The notes below the pieces were generated by a model that did not search any database, was not told the origin of the DNA, and was given only the letters and a program-made list of their open reading frames with translations. A stretch of DNA of 64,000 nucleotides from Polyangiaceae bacterium (GTDB lineage Bacteria; Myxococcota_A; Polyangia; Polyangiales; Polyangiaceae), in NCBI GenBank assembly GCA_025353725.1, contig JANXOF010000065.1:1-64000 (forward strand), written 5' to 3'. Position numbers and translations under genes: made by a program. Within the stretch, counting starts at the first letter, position 1, and each line of letters starts with the position of its first letter. Below are positions 36,038-50,612 of this stretch, one piece after another.

Positions 36038-38797
36038 TCACCATTCGAGCTTGGCGCCCACGATGGCGAGGGTAGGCAACCCGCTAATGTAGTTTCGCGA
36101 CGTGTAGCTGTAGTTGTAGACGACGTCTTCGCGGTTCTGACGGTTCGTGATGTTCTGCGCGTCGACATAAAGCTCGAGCTTCGCCCGCTCCCAGGTGAAG
36201 CGCTTGGCCGCGCGGAAATCCGCCTGAGCGAAGGCAGGAATGCGAATCGAGTTTTGGCCACCAAAGGCAGGCTCGAAGAGGTCGCGCCGCGCGTTGTAAT
36301 ATGCGCCCTCCACCGGGGTGCGCGGGAAGCCGGTGGCATACCTTAGGCGTGCGCCGACCTCGAACCCGAGCGGCAGCTCATAAGAGGCAACCACGGTCGC
36401 CACGTGCGTCTGGTCAAAGTCGAAAAGGCGCCACTCGCCATTCGTCGTGTCCTTGCGCTCTGACTTGATGCAGCTATAGCTGACCCAGCCGAAGAAGCCT
36501 TTCGCGAGCTCCTGACGCAGAAGTATTTGCGCGCCGTACGCGCGGCCCTCGCGCGTGTTGAGCAGCGCCTCACCCGTCGTGGGTGAAGGTAAAGGGCTGC
36601 GGGCTGCGAGCGAGTCGGAGAGCGAAGTGAATGCGGTGGTCTCGGCCGAGAGCTTCTCGAGGATCCGGTAATTGAACCCCGCGAGGTAGTGGGTGGCCTT
36701 CCCGAACCCGAGCGTAGGATTGCCAAAGACGGGCGAGAGATCCTCGGCGTCGGGAGCCTGGTGATACTGGCCATAGGCGGCCTTCAGCGTCAGCGCCTCG
36801 GAGACGGCCCATCGCGCCGCGAGCCGCGGCTCCACGACGGTTTCGTTGCGAAGGTAGCCGCGCTGCTCGGACCCCTCCTTCGTCGGAAATTGCTTGTCGC
36901 CACTGACAAAAAACGAGTCAAGTCTCACCCCCGGAACGATATGGACCTTATTGCCGAACAGCTCGATATCCGCCTGCGCATAGGGTGCAATGCTCCCGAG
37001 GAAGACCGACCAGCGGTCGAAGTTAACCACGTCGTTGGGCGGCTGGCCGAAGACCGTGATGTCGCCTTCCCGAGGCGGCAAGATGGTCGCGCCGCGACGG
37101 CGAATGGTATTATCCGATCCCTCTACGTCGAGCCCGGTGTTGAGAACGACCCTCGGCGCAACCTTGCCGCGCCACTTCGCACGAACGCCAAAGACAGTGG
37201 CGTCGATCGTCTGCTCTGTAGGCGTGGTGCCGAAGCGCTGAGCAAACGCGAAGTGATCGGTGCCAAAGGAAGGCGTAATCGTGGTCGACGATCCGTCGGC
37301 CGCAGCCTTGCGGTAGATGGCAAAGACGCGCTTGAAGTTGCTCTTTCGCTCGTCGGAGAGGCTCTGCGCGGGGTCGGCATTCGTAACCGTCCGCTTGAGC
37401 GTGTCGTCAGAGGCGAGCCCGACCAGCGTGAGCGACTCGTTTTCGCCGAGATCTTGCTCGATTTTGAGCTGGCCATCGAAGAACCGCGGAATAGGCACGA
37501 GCTCGCTAACGTCGCGCTTCGTGAAGATGCCCAGTGTCTCCCCGAGATAGCTCCCGCGACCGCTGATGGCTATGCGCGTCGACTTGCCCAGCGGCGCCTC
37601 CACCAGCGCCGATGTGTCAATGACGTCGGCCGAGAGATAGCCGTGCATTCGGTCACCGCGAAGGGCGCGGGTATCGACGGTGACTAGGCCACCGAGCCCT
37701 CGCCCGAACTCGGCTCCGTAGCCGCCGGGGGCGAGATCGATGGCGCGCACGAGGTCCGAGTTGACGGTCGCGCGAAAGCCTCCCGAGTGGTAGAGCTGCG
37801 GGATTCTCACGCCGTCGACGTAGACGCGTGTGTCTTGCGGAGCTGCCCCCCACACCACGAGCGCGCCGGAACCGAACGCGGCGCGTCCTACACCGGGCAA
37901 GTTCTGCACGACGCGCAGCGCCTCGCCGCCCGTTCCTGGCACCCGGCGCGCCTCCTCGGTCTTGATGGCCACGGTCGTCGCCTCCTTTTGGATGCGTGGC
38001 GCTATCACCTCGATCGTGAGCGTGTCCCCGTCACCCGCGGCAGCCTCGGGCTCGACCTTGTACGTCACTTCGAGACCGCGCTTGGCTTCGATGGTCTCGT
38101 CGGTCTTGACCGTGGCGATCCCGGGACCCGAGACGGTCACGGCGTAGGTGCCTGGCGCGAGTCCTTCGAATTCGAAGTAACCTTCCTCGTCGGTCTGGGC
38201 GTCGGCGACGCTAACCTCGGTTGCCTTGAGTGGATCGCTGCCCAGGGCACCCGGCACGCGCTCCACCTTCACGGAGATGTTACTCAGCGGCCGCGGCTTC
38301 TTGCGCGGCGCCGTGGCGTCGAGGACGACGCCGGAGAAATTCACTTGGGGCCCCAGATCGACGAGCTCTTCCCGGAACGTAAAGTCGTAGCGGAAGGTGA
38401 GTTTCACTGGCGCTGGTCGCCCGTTGATCTCGGCGGGGGCAAACTTAAACCGCTTCGCCGAGTCTACGGCAGCCCCGTCGAAAGCGGCGCCGGCGGATTC
38501 GAGCACCACGACCTCGATCACGTCGCCGCGGTCGGAGATGGCGATTTGTAAGGTCACGGCCGCAGTCCGCGCGGCAGCCTTTTCGACCTCGGGATAGGGT
38601 GCCTCGACTTGTTTAAAGTTGAGTAGCTGCGGAGCCTTCGTCAGCTTTCCCGCGCTCTGGCTCGTGTCGCTACTGCTCGTCGCATTGCCCTGCGCTTGCG
38701 CGCTGCCATTGAAAGATACGAGCAGCAGCGCCGTGAGGAGCGTCAGCGTGGAGCCGAGGCGCACCCGCAGGAATTTAGTCGCCGAGGCGGAAAGCAT
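36038..38797 (-). CDS. TonB-dependent receptor with an N-terminal TonB-C-like domain
   Basis: A 919-residue outer-membrane receptor. After the signal peptide (about 36 residues) comes a domain at about 60-155 (EKAAARTAAVTLQIAISDRG to FAPAEINGRPAPVKLTFRY) that looks like the C-terminal domain of TonB itself. It is followed by a carboxypeptidase-regulatory beta-domain (TDEEGYFEFEGLAPGTYAV), a plug (VQNLPGVGRAAFGSGALVVWG, then APGGYGAEFGRGLGGLV) and a beta barrel ending in TLAIVGAKLEW. Such fusions occur in myxobacteria. It overlaps tonB by 23 bp. The substrate is unknown; neighbours suggest a phosphate-containing ligand. Confidence 0.9.
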   Translation of the reverse strand: MLSASATKFLRVRLGSTLTLLTALLLVSFNGSAQAQGNATSSSDTSQSAGKLTKAPQLLNFKQVEAPYPEVEKAAARTAAVTLQIAISDRGDVIEVVVLESAGAAFDGAAVDSAKRFKFAPAEINGRPAPVKLTFRYDFTFREELVDLGPQVNFSGVVLDATAPRKKPRPLSNISVKVERVPGALGSDPLKATEVSVADAQTDEEGYFEFEGLAPGTYAVTVSGPGIATVKTDETIEAKRGLEVTYKVEPEAAAGDGDTLTIEVIAPRIQKEATTVAIKTEEARRVPGTGGEALRVVQNLPGVGRAAFGSGALVVWGAAPQDTRVYVDGVRIPQLYHSGGFRATVNSDLVRAIDLAPGGYGAEFGRGLGGLVTVDTRALRGDRMHGYLSADVIDTSALVEAPLGKSTRIAISGRGSYLGETLGIFTKRDVSELVPIPRFFDGQLKIEQDLGENESLTLVGLASDDTLKRTVTNADPAQSLSDERKSNFKRVFAIYRKAAADGSSTTITPSFGTDHFAFAQRFGTTPTEQTIDATVFGVRAKWRGKVAPRVVLNTGLDVEGSDNTIRRRGATILPPREGDITVFGQPPNDVVNFDRWSVFLGSIAPYAQADIELFGNKVHIVPGVRLDSFFVSGDKQFPTKEGSEQRGYLRNETVVEPRLAARWAVSEALTLKAAYGQYHQAPDAEDLSPVFGNPTLGFGKATHYLAGFNYRILEKLSAETTAFTSLSDSLAARSPLPSPTTGEALLNTREGRAYGAQILLRQELAKGFFGWVSYSCIKSERKDTTNGEWRLFDFDQTHVATVVASYELPLGFEVGARLRYATGFPRTPVEGAYYNARRDLFEPAFGGQNSIRIPAFAQADFRAAKRFTWERAKLELYVDAQNITNRQNREDVVYNYSYTSRNYISGLPTLAIVGAKLEW

Positions 38798-39512
38798 AAT
38801 TAATCTTCATCGATTTCTGAAAAGCCGTGCGGCAGCGCTCGGCAGGCTCGAATTCCGTTTTGCGAATGGCCGTGAGAGCCGCCTCATCGAGCCCGTGACC
38901 GAGGCCCTGAAGAACGCGAGCGACCTTCACCTTACCGCTGCAGTCGATGGTCGCTTCGATAGCGACCGTACCCTCGATCTCCGAGCTCCGGGCCTCGTCG
39001 GGATAAACAGGCTTCACGCGCGCGGTAGGCTTCGGACTCCAGGCTTTGATGTCAGCCGCTAAGTCGGCGTCCTTTCCTAAGCCCGCGGCCGCTTGCGGAC
39101 TCCCGAGGTTTTTCTCGACCGGCCCCCGCGGCGCGCCTCCGTCCCCGGTGCCCCCAGGCATTCCGCCCCTTCCGTCGGGAACACCGACGCCCGTTGCGGA
39201 CCCCGCACCAGCCTTGAGATTGAGTCCAAAATCCGGCAAGGCTTGCATCAAAGCCGACGGAGGCGGGTTCGCGTCGGGCTCGGGCGCGGCCGGCGGAGGC
39301 GTCGCCGTGGCTCGCAGCTGCTTCGGTTGAAGCACCTCTTTGGGAGCCTCGATAGGCTTCGTAGGTTCGGCCTTCTTCTCTTCTTTCTTCTTCTGTTCCA
39401 CCATCGCTATCAGCGTCTGGCGCTTCTCGAGCTGCTGGGAGCGCTGTGAAACCGTGAAGAACACTCCGATGTGGAGGGCAACACTACCCACGATGAGATA
39501 GCCCGTGTGCAC
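38775..39512 (-). CDS. tonB: Energy-transducing TonB protein
   Basis: A 245-residue TonB. An N-terminal membrane anchor (GYLIVGSVALHIGVFFTV) is followed by a Lys/Glu/Pro-rich linker (EQKKKEEKKAEPTKPIEAPK), a glycine-rich spacer, and a TonB C-terminal domain (VKPVYPDEARSSEIEGTV, FEPAERCRTAF). It carries proton-motive energy from ExbBD to the receptor. Located between exbD and the receptor, which it overlaps by 23 bp. Confidence 0.92.
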   Translation of the reverse strand: MHTGYLIVGSVALHIGVFFTVSQRSQQLEKRQTLIAMVEQKKKEEKKAEPTKPIEAPKEVLQPKQLRATATPPPAAPEPDANPPPSALMQALPDFGLNLKAGAGSATGVGVPDGRGGMPGGTGDGGAPRGPVEKNLGSPQAAAGLGKDADLAADIKAWSPKPTARVKPVYPDEARSSEIEGTVAIEATIDCSGKVKVARVLQGLGHGLDEAALTAIRKTEFEPAERCRTAFQKSMKINYAFRLGD

Positions 39513-39519
39513 GATGGCC

Positions 39520-39936
39520 TCAGTGCGTGTCTTCGACGTTGATCGCGAACTTCGTGAGCCCAGCGACCTTCGCCAGATCTACGACGTGCACGACTTGACC
39601 GTGGAGCGCGGCTTTGTCGGCGCTGACCACCACGTTGGTATTCGGGTCCTTGTCCGCAGCTTCCTTAAGCTTCGCGGCGAGGGATCCGTCGTCGACCTTC
39701 TGCTCGTTGTAAAAGTACTGGCCGTCTTTGGTCACCACTACGGCGGCCACCATCGGTACGGCCTCGGCGACGCTCGCCGTCTTTGGCAGCTCCACCTTGA
39801 GGCTCTTGGAGACGATGTACGTGGCGGATACCATCATGATGACGAGGAGCACGAGCACCACGTCGACCATGGGAGTGATGTTAATCTCGGCGATTGGCCT
39901 GCGGCCGCCGCCGCTCTTCATTGTTCCGGCGCCCAT
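39520..39936 (-). CDS. exbD: ExbD-type biopolymer transporter
   Basis: A 138-residue ExbD/TolR protein. The cytoplasmic start AEINITPMVDVVLVLLVIM includes the conserved transmembrane Asp that carries protons, and the periplasmic end is a normal ExbD domain (VVVSADKAALHGQVVHVVDLAK). It works with ExbB and TonB and lies 7 bp upstream of tonB in the operon. Confidence 0.93.
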   Translation of the reverse strand: MGAGTMKSGGGRRPIAEINITPMVDVVLVLLVIMMVSATYIVSKSLKVELPKTASVAEAVPMVAAVVVTKDGQYFYNEQKVDDGSLAAKLKEAADKDPNTNVVVSADKAALHGQVVHVVDLAKVAGLTKFAINVEDTH

Positions 39937-39938
39937 GG

Positions 39939-40667
39939 TTAGCTACTGCTCGCGGTAGTGAGGACGGGCGACGATTCGCGACCGTGAGTCGACGCGACCA
40001 GAGCGCCCGTCCGAGCGAGCGGCGGCTTGCCCGACTTGTCGGAAAGCAGCTGCGCGGCGACGTACTTTGCCATGACGCTGACGTTCGATTCCACATTAGA
40101 GATCGACTTGTTGACGATGTTGAACGCGACGACCGCGGGGATGGCCACCACCAGTCCGACGCCGGTAGCGATAAGGGCCTCAGCGATCCCGACCATCACG
40201 TTCCCCATGGCATCTTTGTTGTTGTTGCCCAGCTGCTGGAACGCCTGGATGACGCCGAGAACGGTACCGACGAGCCCGATGAAGGGGGCGTTGTTTCCCA
40301 CCGTTCCGAGGTAAGTGGTGCCTCGCTCGAGACCACGTTTCTGCTTGGTCATCTCGGCGTCGACCACCTCGCGAAACGCATCCGGACCGCTGCTGGTCCA
40401 CTCCAGGCACGGAAGCATGACCGCGGCTTCCACGGACTTGCTCTGGCGCAAGAGATCCTTCGCTCCCTTGGTATCGTCGGCGCGCAGCAACTTCATCAGC
40501 TTATCCGTCAAGGCATCAATGTCGTCGCGCCGAGTGACGAAAAACAAAAGCCGTTCGGCCATAATAGCTATCGAGACGACCGAGAGCAGAATCATGATCC
40601 AAAGCACCCAGCCGCCTCCGCCGGAGGCTACGCGTTGCAGTCGCTCGATCAGCTGTTGCGTATTCAT
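39939..40667 (-). CDS. exbB: ExbB-type proton channel protein
   Basis: A 242-residue MotA/TolQ/ExbB protein with three membrane helices: WVLWIMILLSVVSIAIMAE, then APFIGLVGTVLGVIQAF and GLVVAIPAVVAFNIV. The conserved TVLGVI region is intact. It forms the proton channel with ExbD, two bases downstream. No N-terminal extension. Confidence 0.93.
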   Translation of the reverse strand: MNTQQLIERLQRVASGGGGWVLWIMILLSVVSIAIMAERLLFFVTRRDDIDALTDKLMKLLRADDTKGAKDLLRQSKSVEAAVMLPCLEWTSSGPDAFREVVDAEMTKQKRGLERGTTYLGTVGNNAPFIGLVGTVLGVIQAFQQLGNNNKDAMGNVMVGIAEALIATGVGLVVAIPAVVAFNIVNKSISNVESNVSVMAKYVAAQLLSDKSGKPPLARTGALVASTHGRESSPVLTTASSS

Positions 40668-40678
40668 ATGAGTACTCC

Positions 40679-41593
40679 TCAGAACAAGACGTCGGCGATA
40701 AAGTCGCCGAGGCCGAAACCACCCTGCTGCACTTCGAGCTGGCCAATCCGGCCGACGAATCGCTGATCGACGCGACCATTGCGCAGCACCGACACTTCGT
40801 AGCCCGCGCTAACCTGACCGCAGAGACTGAAGGGATTCACGAAGATCGAGAACTTGCCCGCGGGCGGCGTTAGGAAGATGACGTCTTCCTGGCGCAGGCC
40901 GTCGTCGACGCAAGAGGCCACGGAGTCTCCTTCCAGCCGCCCTACACCCGGAAGCGTTCCGGCGTCGGGCGCTCCCACCGGGGCCGTCGTCGGACGCTTG
41001 GGGGAGAGAAGCGTTCCGTCGGGCGCGCGCACCTGCAGGTCGAGGTCGGTCGCGGTATCCCATCGCAGCGTGATTACAGCCGGGGCATCGGGAGAAATAC
41101 GCGGGACGATCTGGAGCGGCGCGAGGGCTCGCTCGCCATAGTGACGCTCGCTATCGACACCACTGACTTCGAGACGGTAGCTGCCGGGCGCGACGGTGGG
41201 CGCGACGTCGAAAACGATCGAGGCCGAGACCTGAGCGCCGTTCAGAGCCTCGGCTTGGCCCACCCGCGCGACCCAATACCCGTTGGTTCGGCCCTGCAGG
41301 CGAATAGCGATGGAGTAAGCGGTATCCTCAGCTCGCACAACGTAGCCGCCCTTGGCACGGGTGCCCGGCGCCGCCCGGTTCGGCCCGATGTCTATCCCCG
41401 CGACTTTCGGACCGCCATCGGGTTTGGGGAGATCACCTGCGAAGAATTGAGCCTCGAAGGTCGTGCTACCGATGACGTAGCCGAACCGGATCGGCTCTTC
41501 ATCGGCGACCAGCGCCGTCACGGAATCACCGCACGCCGGGGCGACCGCTAGCGTCGCGCCCAGTGCCGCCGTCAGCAGGAGGGGGTGCTTCAC
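40679..41593 (-). CDS. Lipoprotein in the TonB operon, unknown domain
   Basis: A 304-residue lipoprotein. The leader ends in AVAPACGDS (lipobox). Its middle holds two beta-domains; LRWDTATDLDLQVRAPDGTLL and FSIFVNPFSLCG resemble the DUF2135-type beta-sandwich often found with vWA proteins. It overlaps the porin gene by four bases (ATGA) and is followed 11 bp later by exbB, so it is firmly part of the operon. Its role with the porin or receptor is unknown. Confidence 0.75.
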   Translation of the reverse strand: MKHPLLLTAALGATLAVAPACGDSVTALVADEEPIRFGYVIGSTTFEAQFFAGDLPKPDGGPKVAGIDIGPNRAAPGTRAKGGYVVRAEDTAYSIAIRLQGRTNGYWVARVGQAEALNGAQVSASIVFDVAPTVAPGSYRLEVSGVDSERHYGERALAPLQIVPRISPDAPAVITLRWDTATDLDLQVRAPDGTLLSPKRPTTAPVGAPDAGTLPGVGRLEGDSVASCVDDGLRQEDVIFLTPPAGKFSIFVNPFSLCGQVSAGYEVSVLRNGRVDQRFVGRIGQLEVQQGGFGLGDFIADVLF

Positions 41594-43119
41594 AGGTTCA
41601 CCTGCAAGCGGACGACGGCGCGATTGTTCGCAAGGTCGGTAGGAACGCCAGCCTCGTCGCGGCCGAACTTGTCACGGACGACGTCGTACTGGAAAAGCAA
41701 CCGCGCTCGGCGTTGCAAGCGCAAACCGACGATCGGGGAATATGTATTAATACTCCGGTCGTTCGGCTGCACCGGTTTCGCATTCTGGAAGTCGCTCGAA
41801 TCACTGTCGGGATTGTAGTGGTCAGCTCGAAATCCGAGGACGAACCACTCGCCGAGCTCCTGAAGGATGGACACGGCGAAGCCTAGTTGGCGGGTGTTTC
41901 GGCCGAGGAGCACCGGGTCGGAGACGAAGACGCCGCGATCCATGTTGTTGCCGATGTAGAGGGCGCCAGCGACCTGCATTTCGCCGACCCGCGTGCGCAC
42001 GTTGACTTGACCGTCGACGGCGAGCCCAAAACGACGAAACGTCGTCGAAGGCTTGGCCGAAATCGGTCCGACGCCGCTGACTTCGGAGGCCTGAAAGATC
42101 CCGTCACCGTTCTGATCGTTCCACTGGACGGACGGCTTCGTGCCCCCCGACTCTTGGTGGAAGCCGCGGCCTACCACGGAGGCGACACCCGCGTTGATGT
42201 CGACGAAGTCGACGGGCTTGACAGCGATGCCGAGGCGCCCGGCGACGTCCTTGGCGGAGTCGGGATCCTGGAGGCGAAAGTTACCCGTGCCCAGCGGGTG
42301 CCCGTTGGTTGCCGCAGCTTGGTACCGAAACCACCCGATCGAACCCGCGACGCGAAGGCCGAGATCGATCTCGGAGGGGAAGAAGGCGCGCGAAACGAGA
42401 GAGCGATCCATGAAGTAGCGAAGCGCGGACGATTGAAGGTTCTCTTCGCCGAACGGAACGCGAAACTGCCCTAGCGTAGCCGAAACAAGTGGCGGCGTTG
42501 GAGGCGCATTCTGACCTCGGTAGAGGATCGACGCCTCGGCGCGCTGAACGCCAAAACTAGGGCCATTCAGCGTGTTGCCGTCAAGCTCCAGGAGCACGCT
42601 CGCGAGCTTCCATTCGCGCTCGGCGACGAGCCGTGCCCGAGGAAGGAGAAAGCGATTTTGGTTCAGCGCGCGACCGTCTTGAGCGACCCCATCCTGCGAT
42701 GACGCGTCCGTTTGGAACTGGCCCTGAACGTAGCCGTAGACCAGGATGCGCTCGCGCGGATCATCTGAGGTTTCCCGGCCCTCCGCCACTGCGGAGGTGG
42801 ACGCGGCGGGCGCTCCCAGGGAGACCGCTGCGGGTGGTTGGAGCGCCGACGAAGGAGCGCTTGGCTCGACAGGCGCTTGACGCGCCTGTTCTTGAAGCTC
42901 GCGTATCTTCGACTGCTGTTCGTCGAGCTGCCTTTGCTGGGCAGCGAGCTGGTCGGCGAGGCGACGCATCAGCGTGGCGCGCGTGGGGGGCGACGCGGGC
43001 GGCGCGTCGGAAGCGGACGAAATACCCGGAGGGGTCAATGGCGCGGGCGTGCCCTGGGCCATCGCCATCGACGGCGTACCAAAGGCGAGAGCGAGAGCGA
43101 GGTGATAATTCGAGTGCAC
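41590..43119 (-). CDS. OprO/OprP-like porin
   Basis: A 509-residue outer-membrane porin. A signal peptide (about residues 1-22, ending SMAMAQG) is followed by a coiled-coil (LADQLAAQQRQLDEQQSKIREL) typical of trimeric phosphate-selective porins of the OprO/P type, then barrel strands: YGYVQGQFQTDAS, NRFLLPRARLVAER, TLGQFRVPFGEEN, MDRSLVSRAFFPSEIDLGLRV. It ends in RAVVRLQVNL with a normal last strand. Phosphate selectivity is a family property and not proven here. The neighbours (PstS-like protein, TonB system) agree with it. Confidence 0.85.
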   Translation of the reverse strand: MHSNYHLALALAFGTPSMAMAQGTPAPLTPPGISSASDAPPASPPTRATLMRRLADQLAAQQRQLDEQQSKIRELQEQARQAPVEPSAPSSALQPPAAVSLGAPAASTSAVAEGRETSDDPRERILVYGYVQGQFQTDASSQDGVAQDGRALNQNRFLLPRARLVAEREWKLASVLLELDGNTLNGPSFGVQRAEASILYRGQNAPPTPPLVSATLGQFRVPFGEENLQSSALRYFMDRSLVSRAFFPSEIDLGLRVAGSIGWFRYQAAATNGHPLGTGNFRLQDPDSAKDVAGRLGIAVKPVDFVDINAGVASVVGRGFHQESGGTKPSVQWNDQNGDGIFQASEVSGVGPISAKPSTTFRRFGLAVDGQVNVRTRVGEMQVAGALYIGNNMDRGVFVSDPVLLGRNTRQLGFAVSILQELGEWFVLGFRADHYNPDSDSSDFQNAKPVQPNDRSINTYSPIVGLRLQRRARLLFQYDVVRDKFGRDEAGVPTDLANNRAVVRLQVNL

Positions 43120-43180
43120 GCGAGCTTTCGGATGGGCAGTTCGCGACGCCGCCCGGTCGGCCGGTGTCGCGAGGTGCGCC

Positions 43181-43522
43181 TCAGGGAACGTCAGCGGTCG
43201 TCGCGGCCTTTGGCGTCAACTTGACGGTCAGTGCGGCGGCGTTGGTGCAGCGGTTGAGAAACTCCTTTTGCGTCGTGGGTGTTCCGCAGAAGCATCCTGA
43301 CGGTTTATTTGAACAGCTGCCGTTCGTGCCTGAGTTTGGCCCACCATCGACCGTGGGCTGGGCTCCGCCATTGCTGCCGGCGTCGGGAGTTGACGGGTCG
43401 AGCGGGTTGATGCCCCTCGCGCTATTTACGGGCGTCGCGTCGTCGTTGCTGCAGGCGGTGACGACACCCGCTGAGAGCGTGACAAGGGCGAAAGCGACGA
43501 GAAACTTCGTTTGCTTGTACAT
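43181..43522 (-). CDS. Small lipoprotein
   Basis: A 113-residue lipoprotein from ATG 43522 (MYKQTKFLVAFALVTLSAGV), lipobox VVTACSND. After an Asp/Gly-rich linker comes a short cysteine pair region (CSNKPSGCFCGTPTTQKEF), like the CGCFFEA tail of the preceding binding protein. It starts one base after that gene's stop. Function unknown; the shared cysteine motif suggests a physical partner. Confidence 0.75.
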   Translation of the reverse strand: MYKQTKFLVAFALVTLSAGVVTACSNDDATPVNSARGINPLDPSTPDAGSNGGAQPTVDGGPNSGTNGSCSNKPSGCFCGTPTTQKEFLNRCTNAAALTVKLTPKAATTADVP

Positions 43523-43523
43523 G

Positions 43524-44738
43524 TTACTTGGCCTCGCAATATCCAAAGACGCACTGCCCACTTGCCCCGCACGTGGCGCTGCCCTCCGTGCAAGTCTTGC
43601 ATGAGGCCGGTGCCGTGCCGGAGGCGGTAGCCTCGAAGAAGCAGCCGCAAGGGGCAGCCGGCGTATACGCCTTGAAGTCGCCGCCGTCGGAAGAGCGGGA
43701 CACCTGCATCGCGCAGTTGGGAACAGCTCGGATTTTTGTCACGGCAGCGACGGCCTCTTTGCTGTCAAGGAGCGCGAGTACCTTCTTGACCGATGCTGAG
43801 TAGTCACCGGCGGTATCTTTCCGGGCGAAAAAGTGAAGGTTGGCCCAGGTCTGGTAGTGGCCATCCCGCACATTGATGAGATCCGCGGCCGTTGACGTGC
43901 TGCTCGGGTAGTAGGCGAAGTCCTGGTCTTTCGCTTGAAAAGCAAGGGGGCGAACCTTTGGCGCGACGCCCGCGGTCGGAACGATATCGTTCAGCGCGAT
44001 GATGCCGATAGCGGAGGCACGGCTCGCAGCGTTGAGAGCTGAGAGCACGGCACCGGCGCCAGCAAGCGGCTTTGCAGGCGCGGCGAAGCTTGGCTTTTGC
44101 GTGACGAGTCCGAGGTTGCGCGCCCAGGTCTGCCATGTTCCCGAATCCTCGGCGCGGCCGAAAACGTCGGCCGTGACGCTCCAGGGCGCGACCGCGAAGC
44201 TCGCGTCGCCGCCGCGCGCGGTAATGCCGAAGATGTTGAACGCGGCGGCCGCGCTTATCGCGACGGGGAAGCTCGGGTCATCGTTGATGGCGAGGGTGAA
44301 GGCTTGCACGGGCCCCAGCGTGTCGGTGACGCCTGGAGGAAGAGTTTTGCTAGCTAGACCCCCAATGCCGTCACACGAAGAAGCGTAAACGTCCGAGACG
44401 CCGATGTCCGCGGCGCGCGGCGGAGTCATCGTGCAGGTGTTCGTCGGAGCGACGGCGTTGTAGGCCGTACTGGCGGATGCAACGCTGTTCGTCGTGTCAG
44501 TGACTGGGGTGACAGCCTCGTAGACCCCTCCACATGAAGACTTGCTGTTGCTGTAGACAACCTTGATGCCGTCGTTGGCGGCAACCTTCGCCACCGCCTC
44601 GATGAGTTTTTGGCTCGCGCTCGAGCCGCGAACGAGGACCACGCCGGCATCGCATGGGCCCATATCCTCGGCCTTTGCCGTCGATGCGGCGGAGAGCGAC
44701 AGCGCTGAAGCTGCCGCGATGATGCAGAGATTTCGCAT
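43524..44738 (-). CDS. PstS-like periplasmic binding protein
   Basis: A 404-residue exported protein from ATG 44738, preceded by AGGAG six bases upstream. Signal peptide about residues 1-23 (MRNLCIIAAASALSLSAAS). The body follows the phosphate-binding (PBP type 2) pattern: VVLVRGSSASQKLIEAVAKV, ADIGVSDVYASSCDGI, and VLALLDSKEAVAAV. Unlike ordinary PstS it ends in a cysteine-rich tail (PCGCFFEATASG, CKTCTEGSATCGASGQC). No pst permease genes are nearby, so it may hand its ligand to the TonB/porin complex. First gene of the nine-gene operon. Confidence 0.8.
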   Translation of the reverse strand: MRNLCIIAAASALSLSAASTAKAEDMGPCDAGVVLVRGSSASQKLIEAVAKVAANDGIKVVYSNSKSSCGGVYEAVTPVTDTTNSVASASTAYNAVAPTNTCTMTPPRAADIGVSDVYASSCDGIGGLASKTLPPGVTDTLGPVQAFTLAINDDPSFPVAISAAAAFNIFGITARGGDASFAVAPWSVTADVFGRAEDSGTWQTWARNLGLVTQKPSFAAPAKPLAGAGAVLSALNAASRASAIGIIALNDIVPTAGVAPKVRPLAFQAKDQDFAYYPSSTSTAADLINVRDGHYQTWANLHFFARKDTAGDYSASVKKVLALLDSKEAVAAVTKIRAVPNCAMQVSRSSDGGDFKAYTPAAPCGCFFEATASGTAPASCKTCTEGSATCGASGQCVFGYCEAK

Positions 44739-44835
44739 ATTAAACTCCTCGAGAGGCAAGTCGCGCAACGCGCGCACCGCGTTCCGTCAGGGAGCGCAAA
44801 CTGGTCGCAAATCATGGCGACACGTTGCGCGTTCG

Positions 44836-46205: not shown

Positions 46206-46937
46206 TCAGTCTCCAAAGTTCGAGAAGTCGAAGTGCTCGAAGTTCTCGGCTCCTCTCCACCACTCCGGTGGCTCGTTTAACGGCACGGGTTCCAACTCGA
46301 GTCTCACGGAGTCTTTCACATCACCGGCAAGCGATCCCGACTCGATGGCGCGGGCGATCTTTCGAGCATCATCCCAGAGGACGCGCATGTAGCGTGTTCC
46401 GTTATCGCGCCCGAGCCAGCGTGCACCCGCGATTGGACTCAGGCGACCGGGTAGCGGTGACATCGAGGCGAGGGTGTGCGCGTCGACCAGGGAGGCGGCT
46501 CGCTCGAAGTTCGCGTCAAAATGCACAGTCTCGAAGGAGCCACGATCCACGTCGATGACGCGGTGACCCTCACGATCGAGGACTTCGAGTGTGGCGGCTC
46601 CGTCGCGCCCGCGCTCGACGACACGCGGCAGGCTTGCAAGGTCCGGCGCTTGGTGAGGGTCGCCGTGACGGTCGGGACGAACCGCTCCCTGCGGCCTAAT
46701 GCGCGCGATATACACGTGATTGCCACATCGCTGAAAGCTCTCGCGGAAGGTCACGTCGCGCGAAATACCGTCGGCACTTTCGCTATGCTCGTGGTGATGA
46801 ACGATCGCCGCGACGCACGGCGTTTCCGTGTCAACGTCGGCCGCGCTCGCCGTAGCTCGTCGTTGATCCACGACGACGCCGGCGACGACGATGAGGCCGA
46901 CTGCGATCCATTCGCGCCGTTTGGTGCGCACGGTCAA
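46206..46937 (-). CDS. Exported protein cotranslated with the phosphatase
   Basis: A 243-residue protein with an N-terminal leader (WIAVGLIVVAGVVV) and no recognised domain. It has a His-rich piece (AIVHHHEHSES) and an acidic-aromatic end (WWRGAENFEHFDFSNFGD). Its ATG overlaps the stop of the phosphatase gene by four bases (46934-46937), so it is translationally coupled and probably secreted with it. The His cluster could bind metal. Family unknown. Confidence 0.7.
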   Translation of the reverse strand: MTVRTKRREWIAVGLIVVAGVVVDQRRATASAADVDTETPCVAAIVHHHEHSESADGISRDVTFRESFQRCGNHVYIARIRPQGAVRPDRHGDPHQAPDLASLPRVVERGRDGAATLEVLDREGHRVIDVDRGSFETVHFDANFERAASLVDAHTLASMSPLPGRLSPIAGARWLGRDNGTRYMRVLWDDARKIARAIESGSLAGDVKDSVRLELEPVPLNEPPEWWRGAENFEHFDFSNFGD

Positions 46938-49696
46938 AGCCCTAGCGCTGCGCGGACAAGCGCAAACACGTGCGTATTTTCAAAGGTGCCGTGGAACGCG
47001 TTCGAGCCCGCGCCCGTAGCGAGCAGCATGACGTCCCCTCCGCCGTGCGTCTCCGCCCCCGCCGGACGCCGGATACCTGCCGGTTGGTGAAAGTCTGCGC
47101 CCATCGCGTCAGCTGACGTGAGCGCCGTCCGGACGTCGGGCCGACTTTCACCGTTGCCGAACGCGAGGACCGGGTAGGGGAGTCCGTCGGCGTCGAGCGA
47201 GACATCGCCTTTGCGATCACGGACGACGTCGAGGACTGAGTTTCCGCGTTTGGCATATCCATTGATAACCATGGTGTGGTCGTGATCGGCTGTCACGACC
47301 ACGAGCGTCTCGTCGAGATTTACCTTGCCGAGAGCGGCCTCAATGGCGTTGTCGAACGCGCCAACATCTTCGACGGCACGCTTGGCGTTCGTGCCATGGA
47401 GGGCGTGGTCGATGCGTCCCCCCTCGACCATGAGAAACCACCCTTTACCGGCGGACGCACGCTCGAGAACGCCCAACGCGGACGTGGTCATTTCGGCGAG
47501 GCTCGGTTGGACTTCTTTATCTCGGTCGAGCTCGAAGCTGAGGTGACTCGACTTGCTAAAGACACCGACGAGTCTCGAAGCCGAGATGGCGGAGGCAACA
47601 AGTCCGGCGCGGTCGGTCGCCACAACATAACCACGTTCGCGCAACTCACGAAATAAGTCGCGACCGTCTTGCCTCCCCTTTGGGTTGCTCGCGTTGTCGA
47701 ACGGTGTCCAATGATTGGCTCCCCCGCCAAGGAGTACGTCGAGCCCGGTGCCTAATCCTGCGTTGTATCCTGCGCCCCCTGGAACGGCTTGCGCCGCAAT
47801 GGCATAGGCAAGGTCGCGATGGCACATGTGGGCGTAGGTCGCCGCCGGCGTCGCGTGCGTCGCCTCCGTCGTCGTCACCGTTCCTACGGCCTTTCCAGCC
47901 TTTTTAGCGAGTTCGAGAAGGGTCGGAACGGGCTTTCCGTTCGTCTCCGTGCAGCCGTTCTTGTCGGCCACAGTGTCGGATGACATCGAGATGACCTCGT
48001 TGTTGGCCTTCACTCCGGTCATGTATGCGCTCATCGAAGGCGCGCTATCGGTCGTTTGGGCATCGTTTGAATACGTCTTTATTCGAGCCGAATGCGGCAG
48101 TCTCTCCATCGCGAGCTTTCCACTCTCGCCAACCTTGTAGAGTCGGCCGGCGGTGACGACCGCAGGTCCCATTCCGTCGCCAAGAAAGAAAAGTACGTTC
48201 TTCGCTTTGGCATTCGTCTTCACGGGCTCTGGCGGTATCGCTACCGCGCCACGCAGGATTGAAAATACCTCGGTGTTGTCCATCACTCCGTGGACGGCAG
48301 CGGCCCCCAAGCCGATGGCCATGATGGCAACATCGGTTCCTCCGTGCGTCTCTCCGCCCGCGGGCATACGAATCGACGCCTCTTGGTGGTAATCGTTGGC
48401 CGAAGTGAGTTCGGGCGTGAGCGAGGTCACGCTCGCTCGGTTTCCCGCGACGCGGCTTTCGCCGTTACCGAATCCGAGAATTGAATACGGCTGACCGTCG
48501 GCGTCGAGATCCGGCTTTCCCGTCACGTAGTTATTAACGAGCCCGAGCACTCCCGGCTCCGACGGCGTCGTGGCGCCCGTGCGCTTTGCGTAGCCATTCA
48601 GCACCATCGTGTGGTCGTGGTCGGCGGTGACGACGAGCAGGGTCCTCGCGAGGAAGGGGTCGTCGACGCGCAGGCGCGCGAGGATGTCAGCCAGCGCCTG
48701 GTCGAAGGCCACGGTCTCCGTCAACGCGCGCTTCGCGTTCGTTTCATGAAGCGCGTGATCGATACGCCCGCCTTCGACCACGAGGAAAAACCCGATTGAG
48801 TTTTTTGCGAGCAGGTCAATGGCCTTGACGGACATCGCCCCGAGGCTCGGCTCCTTTTGTGGCAGACGATCGAGCTCGTAGCTCATATGGCTCGCGGTGA
48901 AGAGCCCAAGTACCTTGGTTGCCGACGCAGGAAGTGCGTCGAACGCAGCCGTTGAATCTGCGAACACGTAGCCCTTCGACTTCATGGCGTCGATGAGGTT
49001 TCGTCCGTCCGAACGACCGGCCGCGCTGCCTATCGCGGGAAGAAACTGCCGCGTTCCGCCGCCGAAGACGACGTCGACGCCGTCACCGAGGGCTTTGTTG
49101 TAGGTCGGCTGGCCCGGGACGAGCTGCGCTGCGATCTCGTCTTCGCGAGTGCTGTCGCTCGTGTGCGCATACGTCGCAGAGGCGGTGGCCTGTGTCACGC
49201 GCGTTGTCGTCACAATTCCCGTAGAGAGCTTCTCCGCCTTCGCTAACTCGAACAAGGTTTTTGCGGGTGACCCGGTCGCACCTTTTGAGGTAGTGTCCGC
49301 ACTCATCGACACGACGTCGTTTTCAGCTTTAACGCCTGTCATGTAGGCGCTCATCGCGGCCGCCGCGTCCGTGACTTGACTGTCTTTGGAATACGTTTTC
49401 ACGAAGCCAGTTTCTGGCAGCGTGTCCATAGTCAGGCTGCCCGCTTCGCCCTTAGCGAAGATCCGCGCGGCCGTCATCACGTTGATGCCCATTCCGTCTC
49501 CGACGAGGAAGACGACGCGACGCGAATTTGCCGCGGAAGGCGTCGATTTACTCGGCATATTGGGCGCAGTCGGTGCATCGCGCCCAACAGGGCTTGGCCC
49601 CTCGTCCGTCGCACGAGTGCCGTCGTCGGCCTTGCACGAAGTGAGGCTTACGAGGAGTGATGTGAGCACAAGTGCGCGCGAGCTTGGTCGTCTCAT
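46934..49696 (-). CDS. Tandem alkaline phosphatase lipoprotein, first domain without nucleophile
   Basis: A 920-residue lipoprotein from ATG 49696 (leader ends LLVSLTSC). Two complete alkaline phosphatase domains lie in tandem (about residues 58-480 and 495-920). Each has the metal motif (FLVGDGMG; FFLGDGMG), the EGGRIDHALH block, TADHDHTM and ETHGG-D. The nucleophile segment differs: the second domain has TTDSAPSMSAYMTG with Ser, the first has VTDAAAAMSAYMTG with Ala (codon GCG at 49364-49366). The first domain therefore keeps its metals but should not form the phosphoserine intermediate. A coupled exported protein follows. Confidence 0.93.
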   Translation of the reverse strand: MRRPSSRALVLTSLLVSLTSCKADDGTRATDEGPSPVGRDAPTAPNMPSKSTPSAANSRRVVFLVGDGMGINVMTAARIFAKGEAGSLTMDTLPETGFVKTYSKDSQVTDAAAAMSAYMTGVKAENDVVSMSADTTSKGATGSPAKTLFELAKAEKLSTGIVTTTRVTQATASATYAHTSDSTREDEIAAQLVPGQPTYNKALGDGVDVVFGGGTRQFLPAIGSAAGRSDGRNLIDAMKSKGYVFADSTAAFDALPASATKVLGLFTASHMSYELDRLPQKEPSLGAMSVKAIDLLAKNSIGFFLVVEGGRIDHALHETNAKRALTETVAFDQALADILARLRVDDPFLARTLLVVTADHDHTMVLNGYAKRTGATTPSEPGVLGLVNNYVTGKPDLDADGQPYSILGFGNGESRVAGNRASVTSLTPELTSANDYHQEASIRMPAGGETHGGTDVAIMAIGLGAAAVHGVMDNTEVFSILRGAVAIPPEPVKTNAKAKNVLFFLGDGMGPAVVTAGRLYKVGESGKLAMERLPHSARIKTYSNDAQTTDSAPSMSAYMTGVKANNEVISMSSDTVADKNGCTETNGKPVPTLLELAKKAGKAVGTVTTTEATHATPAATYAHMCHRDLAYAIAAQAVPGGAGYNAGLGTGLDVLLGGGANHWTPFDNASNPKGRQDGRDLFRELRERGYVVATDRAGLVASAISASRLVGVFSKSSHLSFELDRDKEVQPSLAEMTTSALGVLERASAGKGWFLMVEGGRIDHALHGTNAKRAVEDVGAFDNAIEAALGKVNLDETLVVVTADHDHTMVINGYAKRGNSVLDVVRDRKGDVSLDADGLPYPVLAFGNGESRPDVRTALTSADAMGADFHQPAGIRRPAGAETHGGGDVMLLATGAGSNAFHGTFENTHVFALVRAALGL

Positions 49697-49802
49697 TGGC
49701 TCTCTAAATCCTAGGCTTGGACGAACGTGTAGTTGACTGAATGGCATATTGACTCCGCCGGTTCGCCCTGCAGACTGGTCGTACTTGGGTTATGTGGCGC
49801 GT

Positions 49803-49931: not shown

Positions 49932-50612
49932 ATGGGCCGAATTCTGGTCATTGACGCAGACGCGCATCGACGCGTCGAATTCGCTCGCGCGCTAAACGCG
50001 GAATCGCACGACGTGGAGTTTGTGGGGTCATCAGCGAGGGCGAGGCTTGCGGCGTGCGCCTCACGACCGGACCTCGTGATTCTTCACGGTGCGTTTCCAG
50101 ACGCGACGTGCGCTGAAGTTTGCGGTGCGCTTCGACGCGACTCTTCGACGGCTCAGGCGCTCCTGCTCGTGTTGGGGCCGCTCGCCAACGAAGCCTTTTG
50201 CATCGAGGCTTTCGAGGCAGGCGCAGATGACTACGTACCGACGCCCTACAGTACGCGCGAAGTTTTGCTTCGCATCCGCGCGCTGCTTCGGCGTATTCCC
50301 GCGCGCGCCTGGGCTTCGAACATCGTAATGGGCTCGGTGCGTATCGATCGAGGTACACGGCGGGTAACGATGGCGGGCAAGCCCGTGACGCTCACCCGGC
50401 GCGAGTTCGACTTGCTTATGCGCCTTTTTGATTCGCGCGGGCGCGTGCTCGCGCGCGAAACCATTGTGGCTGATGTGTGGCCCGACGACGCGCCATCGCC
50501 GCGTGTCGTCGATACGACGCTAAAGCGTCTACGAAAGAAGCTCCCCGGTATGGGCCGCCGCATTCGGACGGTCCGCGGGGTGGGCTACGAGCTCACGCCT
50601 GACGCGCCTTAG
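49932..50612 (+). CDS. OmpR/PhoB-type regulator with a receiver lacking Asp
   Basis: A 226-residue regulator. The receiver (1-120) starts ILVIDADAHRR. The acceptor segment reads DLVILHGAFPD, with His (codon CAC, 50085-50087) where DLVILD is expected, and the usual KP is TP (VPTPYS, codon ACG at 50241-50243). The winged-helix output (130-226) is intact: VTLTRREFDLLMRLFDSRG, VLARETIVADVW, RIRTVRGVGYEL. It should bind DNA but not be switched by normal phosphorylation. Divergent from the phosphatase gene. Confidence 0.9.
   Translation: MGRILVIDADAHRRVEFARALNAESHDVEFVGSSARARLAACASRPDLVILHGAFPDATCAEVCGALRRDSSTAQALLLVLGPLANEAFCIEAFEAGADDYVPTPYSTREVLLRIRALLRRIPARAWASNIVMGSVRIDRGTRRVTMAGKPVTLTRREFDLLMRLFDSRGRVLARETIVADVWPDDAPSPRVVDTTLKRLRKKLPGMGRRIRTVRGVGYELTPDAP

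Follow-up and report, generated by a model that had tools for sequence, protein, structure and literature searches.

The window analysed here, a stretch of 64,000 nucleotides of contig JANXOF010000065.1 (Polyangiaceae bacterium, assembly GCA_025353725.1), comes from a host bacterium related to the soil-dwelling Labilithrix and carries on its reverse strand a gene for a predicted lipoprotein in which two alkaline phosphatase (AP) domains are fused in tandem. Domain 1 has lost its nucleophilic Ser, the His at 153 and the Arg that clamps the phosphate, and is therefore almost certainly catalytically dead, a strong inference from its sequence, whereas domain 2 has a canonical active site. The Ala that replaces the nucleophile is seen in one genome, and by comparison with its homologues the change is recent and lineage-specific. 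What stands is that a fused phosphatase contains a pseudo-domain that arose recently and in one lineage; we read it, with little more than even confidence, as a dead domain 1 that is kept as anchor and obligate dimer partner of a working domain 2.

The active site of domain 1

The open reading frame (ORF) that the initial annotation had placed at 46934-49696 is real, and ATG 49696 is its likely start. An upstream ATG at 49747 opens the same reverse-strand ORF (46934-49747, 937 codons/residues); residue numbers given here count from this ATG, while 102, 153, 166 and the other active-site positions follow the numbering of Escherichia coli AP. The tandem arrangement is borne out by Pfam, in which PF00245 scores 623 bits on the whole protein in two stretches of 312 and 323 bits. 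With 312 bits against a curated cut-off of 24.4, domain 1 is a member of the family by descent, but as it lacks Ser102 and Arg166 it is not classed as an active phosphatase. Domain 2 belongs to PF00245 by its profile score of 323 bits together with Ser, Arg and the metal ligands, all of which are present.

Where domain 2 reads TTDSAPSMS, domain 1 reads VTDAAAAMS, and its residue 128, the equivalent of Ser102, is Ala (GCG at 49364-49366), exactly as first annotated. Independently, phmmer aligns Ala128 with the catalytic Ser of human tissue-nonspecific AP, and in the same alignment the His and the Arg of the HATP...RD loop face Gln186 and Ser199, respectively, with no gap separating these two. 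The 14 active-site positions that we tabulated read DDAQTHSEDHHDHH in domain 1 and DDSHTHREDHHDHH in domain 2. Three catalytic residues are thus lost from domain 1 (S102A, H153Q as Gln186 at 49190-49192, and R166S as Ser199 at 49151-49153), and its Cys pair is gone as well; the second catalytic loop carries the further changes Pro to Ala189, Ala to Ser190 and Cys to Ser197. Of these, the initial annotation had seen the Ala only, and the additional losses strengthen the case for a pseudo-phosphatase. The metal ligands of E. coli AP are D51, T155, E322, D327, H331, D369, H370 and H412, and none of these eight positions has changed in domain 1; each of the two domains has the complete set, in agreement with the metal motifs noted before in both halves.

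The active-site table has 83 rows for 82 distinct loci, one gene standing twice; the overlapping or duplicate loci L001-L003, L016, L017, L022, L023, L025 and L026 were left out of it and of the count of invariant columns given below, and L004, treated as the same gene as that of the RYN_370 sister described below (L028) since its contig is equally long (19,171 bases), was left out of that count. The canonical full set is found in 80 of the 82 upstream copies, the sister included; L006 has Asp at 153, as does E. coli AP, and L035 is truncated ahead of D51. Every downstream copy is canonical as far as it extends, three of them ending before H412.

Experiments on E. coli AP show how much the lost residues matter. 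Activity is undetectable once Ser102 is replaced (PMC3699461), and R166S alone lowers kcat/KM 6.3x10^3-fold (PMC4438272). With its catalytic residues lost and its fold and sequence still constrained, domain 1 qualifies, as a predicted protein, as a pseudoenzyme. The initial annotation had spoken of a catalytic and a metal-loaded pseudo-phosphatase in one lipoprotein. The pair of an active-looking and a pseudo-domain, the ligands and the predicted lipoprotein hold, the latter by a signal peptide with the lipobox LTSC that was read from the sequence; that domain 1 is loaded with metal may be supposed from its intact ligands.

Position of the departures and constraint on domain 1

Domain 1 breaks 7 of the 102 columns that are invariant in 81 upstream copies, the sister excluded: Ser128 to Ala, Pro130 to Ala, Ser131 to Ala, Pro189 to Ala, Ala190 to Ser, Cys197 to Ser and Arg199 to Ser. 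All seven belong to two loops, 126-132 and 185-200, which together hold 16 of the invariant columns (hypergeometric P ~6e-7, with loop borders that were chosen post hoc, after the data had been seen). Four of the seven are specific to the window protein, and the other three positions are changed in the sister too. When each upstream copy was left out in turn, L005 and L006 were likewise found to break seven invariant columns, yet both keep Ser102 and Arg166; on this comparison it is therefore not the number of departures in domain 1 that is unusual, but their position. At a threshold of 97% conservation, 16 of 154 columns are broken, eight of them in the loops (P ~5e-5). Domain 2 breaks 4 of 117 invariant columns, none of them at a tabled catalytic position.

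By the method of Nei and Gojobori, the comparison with the sister yields a dN/dS of 0.15 in domain 1 and of 0.08 in domain 2; dS exceeds 1, so these values are rough, but both fall within what is usual under purifying selection. A tree was built from 30 of the 82 loci plus the window; in it each domain of the window protein pairs with the corresponding domain of the sister, and the terminal branches measure 0.214 (window) and 0.116 (sister) for domain 1 against 0.148 and 0.113 for domain 2. A general decay of domain 1 is not favoured, since all strictly invariant breaks fall in the two loops and the rest of the domain is constrained.

Relatives and history of the fusion

A contig search found 245 relatives, the best 80 of which were examined; the counts of homologues refer to these 80, and very near relatives may be missing from the search. 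They consist of one fused sister and 79 loci at which the two AP copies are separate, adjacent or overlapping ORFs, and Ser stands in both copies at every one of the 80. The initial annotation had proposed that an Ala conserved in homologues would speak for a selected pseudo-enzyme and that Ser in their domain 1 would speak against it. It is Ser that was found, in the sister as well as in the 79 two-gene homologues, so the loss is not conserved among orthologues; an old, conserved pseudoenzyme is rejected in favour of a recent change in one genome.

The sister is the likewise fused protein of Labilithrix sp. RYN_370 (JAQBQJ010000249.1), which is 76% identical, has a lipobox (ITAC) and is followed by the same third gene as in the window. 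Unlike the window protein, its domain 1 keeps Ser, His and Arg. However, the Cys pair is already absent there and the nucleophile loop has AA instead of PS, and because these changes coexist with the three intact catalytic residues, the erosion of the active site looks stepwise and subsequent to the fusion.

The fused gene is present in 2 of the 12 genomes of the genus. A survey of the class, scored per genome on the best two first-look candidates for AP and on the best nine for the third gene, gave some match in 46 of 317 genomes, and strong matches to the pair or fusion (E <1e-110) in six (G000, G004, G030, G044, G153 and G295). No further pseudo-domain was seen: Ser is present in 46 of 46 AP ORFs (36 + 4 + 6, duplicates included) of those class matches whose locus was fetched. 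The interrupted weak match L015 holds no AP frame.

Two further single-ORF tandem APs, L130 (G178:C456, 1033 aa) and L131 (G174:C194, 1193 aa), have Ser in both halves. These look like independent fusions, and it seems that AP fusion arose more than once. At L103 and L133, the downstream AP of a deltaproteobacterial pair groups in the tree with its own upstream copy, which suggests gene conversion or a fresh duplication.

The three-gene cassette

Comparison of gene orders indicates that the fusion is derived from a cassette that consists of a lipoprotein AP (AP1), a soluble AP (AP2) and a protein predicted to be LolA/RseB-like. The two-gene pairs of Aeromonas, Burkholderia, Chromobacterium, Cupriavidus, Acinetobacter and others have the same order AP1-AP2 and mostly the same third gene, with 45-63% identity to the window protein in the best segment. 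They differ from it in having separate ORFs, a distinct signal peptide on AP2 in those that were read, and Ser in both copies of all 79. The position of the interdomain linker in the fusion corresponds in them to a stop codon and the signal peptide of AP2. By a crude pattern, a lipobox-like motif precedes AP1 at 74 of the 80 loci and AP2 at 7 of them, which suggests that AP1 is the anchor of the pair. The fusion retains the anchor of AP1 and is devoid of the AP2 signal peptide. The ancestral cassette thus probably encoded AP1 on an anchor, AP2 in free form and, as their partner, a LolA-like protein; the fusion probably puts both enzymes on one anchor. Cassette loci (L029-L107, L136 and L137) occur in many proteobacterial genera, and in Cupriavidus and Acinetobacter annotated plasmids carry them as well.

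A third-gene match follows AP2 at 74 of the 80 loci. Among the six others, four are on contigs that end at most about 550 bases past AP2, and L055 and L059 gave none; on an annotated Acinetobacter pittii plasmid a hypothetical protein is encoded directly after AP2. In the window, the ORF of the third gene overlaps the stop of the phosphatase gene. The class survey gave five strong third-gene matches, each in a different one of the six genomes that have the AP pair or fusion (G044 is without one); four weak matches of 24-26 bits are in other genomes.

The product of the third gene is labelled "hypothetical protein" in both annotated records that were read, and neither Pfam nor NCBIfam matched the window protein up to E 0.1. 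In a set of 50 members, matches to these databases are scattered and weak (at most three members per family, best E 0.0031) and look like chance. An AlphaFold2 model (pLDDT 88, pTM 0.80) resembles LolA, RseB and ependymin-type proteins: the best Foldseek hit is LolA (E 4.9e-6, TM 0.38/0.45), and VIA-align ranks ependymin first (Z 10.6), before RseB (Z 9.5) and LolA (Z 8.7 and below).

Why domain 1 may have been kept

APs are dimers, and domain 1 carries the predicted lipid anchor. These two properties can explain why a dead domain would be retained: the fused chain would form the AP dimer internally, domain 2 with its intact active site would carry out the hydrolysis, and domain 1 may persist because it holds the lipid anchor and is an indispensable half of the dimer, which would keep its fold and metal ligands conserved. 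The AlphaFold2 model of the fused chain, built from an alignment of 28 rows, 26 of them read-through pairs, has a pTM of 0.85 and 73 low-confidence N-terminal residues. This pTM is above what would be expected for two domains of undefined placement and argues, within the limits of a model, for a defined arrangement. When the model was aligned by structure with single AP chains, 22 of the 50 rows shown had their first aligned residue in domain 1, between 106 and 142, where it faces the N-terminal part of the solved chain; as the ranges give first and last aligned residues only, this is at most consistent with a packing of the model at the subunit interface. A first alignment of the halves with the fused protein, in which every half seemed to fall on domain 2, did not enter the modelling.

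Several results weigh against this proposal. The active-site loops are of low confidence in both domains of the model, half of the 16 columns broken at the 97% threshold are outside the two loops, and the dN/dS of domain 1, about twice that of domain 2, fits a relaxed constraint as well, as does a terminal branch of domain 1 about twice as long as that of the sister. The greatest uncertainty is that a single genome has the pseudo-domain, so that selection for a dead domain 1 is inseparable from drift.

The main rival is neutral decay. The fusion would have made catalysis by domain 1 redundant and its active site would erode with no selected role, while the metal ligands would persist since they also hold the fold. 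The stepwise loss, with a sister that has already given up the Cys pair and PS but not Ser, His and Arg, fits this course, and so do the faster evolution of domain 1 and the occurrence in one genome only. What speaks against it is the position of all seven strictly invariant departures in two catalytic loops, and even the rough dN/dS of 0.15 still means constraint. We regard purely neutral erosion as possible, but clearly less probable than retention as anchor and dimer partner.

Less likely still is that domain 1 has become a sensor or holder of phosphate, which would bind inorganic phosphate tightly in its metal site and report it to domain 2 or take over product from there. Ala at 102 and Ser at 166 are the very pair of the engineered E. 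coli mutant S102A/R166S, and domain 1 keeps its metal ligands. At pH 8 the Kd for phosphate is 260 nM for the wild type, <=0.02 nM for S102A, 3.6x10^5 nM for R166S and 77 nM for S102A/R166S (PMC3699461, Table 1), and Ser102 mutants are devoid of detectable activity according to the same source. If metals are bound and Gln at 153 is harmless, domain 1 would bind phosphate about as the working enzyme does, without the chemistry. The exchange of His153 for Gln is absent from the measured mutant, which weakens the analogy, and no downstream partner is known. By the same comparison, a natural AP of the S102A/R166S type, in which a tight, metal-dependent phosphate-binding domain and a live phosphatase form a single chain with a built-in product sensor, would be a rather improbable outcome.

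That domain 1 remains a catalyst by other means, through a metal-bound hydroxide or one of the gained Ser at 190, 197 and 199, is very unlikely: the intact ligands and the three new Ser in the second loop would allow it, but we found no precedent in the family, and the Ser102 mutants of E. coli described in PMC3699461 have no detectable activity. An error of sequencing, assembly or binning is scarcely credible as the origin of the Ala even though the genome is a draft in 98 contigs whose contamination is estimated at 3.43%, because GCG differs from the AGC of the sister at all three bases, which upholds the earlier view that no one-base reading error is involved, and because the other catalytic changes lie ~170-215 bases away in an intact frame on a contig of 222,962 bases.

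Coordinates and genome context

Table 1. Features of the fused phosphatase gene and the adjacent cassette gene (positions in the window).
Feature	Position	Strand	Remarks
Fused tandem alkaline phosphatase gene	46934..49696	(-)	likely start ATG 49696; PF00245 twice
Lipoprotein signal MRRPSSRALVLTSLLVSLTSC	49634..49696	(-)	lipobox LTSC, Cys38 predicted lipidated; read from sequence
Domain 1, predicted PhoA-type pseudo-phosphatase	48245..49522	(-)	PF00245 312 bits; active-site table
Domain 1 nucleophile loop TDAAAAM, residues 126-132	49352..49372	(-)	Ala128 codon GCG at 49364-49366
Domain 1 second catalytic loop, residues 185-200	49148..49195	(-)	sequence alignments
Interdomain linker, short, low-confidence, residues 504-511	48215..48238	(-)	
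Domain 2, AP with canonical active site (Ser568, His631, Arg644, eight metal-ligand positions)	46940..48205	(-)	PF00245 323 bits
Third cassette gene, uncharacterised, LolA/RseB/ependymin-like predicted fold	46206..46937	(-)	ORF overlaps phosphatase

The fused gene is the sole PF00245 locus at E <= 0.001 in a genome that is 97.55% complete. A profile search of this genome gave no match to PhoD, two weak ones to PhoX and nine to the sulfatase family. Directly upstream and divergent from the phosphatase gene, an OmpR-type response regulator is encoded at 49932-50612 (+), which is a possible regulator of it. Within 36038-44777 (-) a gene of the phosphate-selective porin family Porin_O_P is located near genes for ExbB and a TonB receptor, possibly a nutrient-uptake neighbourhood. 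The idea of a phosphate locus was dropped, the product of 43524-44777 being PstS-like by eye but without a significant Pfam match.

Comparison with known systems

Among solved structures, the closest relatives of the window protein by sequence are animal enzymes of the PhoA type (human tissue-nonspecific and placental AP). Each domain covers the family almost from end to end, and domain 2 keeps every tabled residue; the difference is that the window protein has two domains per chain, the first of which is devoid of the equivalents of the Ser nucleophile, Arg166 and His153. In the openly licensed PMC literature we found no tandem, fused or natural pseudo AP of this kind, which is weak evidence of absence, and no paper on the cassette of AP1, AP2 and third gene.

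Receptor protein tyrosine phosphatases have a fold and a mechanism unrelated to those of AP. They likewise combine active and pseudo-phosphatase domains in one chain (PMC7320164), although there it is the distal domain that is inactive. A dead paralogue kept as the partner of a live one is also described (PMC3663545, PMC5201418) for the deoxyhypusine synthase and the S-adenosylmethionine decarboxylase/prozyme of trypanosomes; these are separate chains of unrelated enzymes, and activation has been demonstrated there, whereas the pair of the window is known from its sequence. An engineered counterpart of domain 1 itself is E. coli AP S102A/R166S (PMC3699461), which has the same residues at 102 and 166; it is a laboratory mutant with Asp153 unchanged and without a fused active partner. 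AP is a model enzyme with an active site that has been taken apart one mutant after another, and here some of the residues concerned have been lost in a natural lineage. Together with the fused RYN_370 sister, in which the three residues are intact, the window protein forms a before-and-after pair on which a role of domain 1 as anchor, dimer partner or phosphate sensor can be compared.

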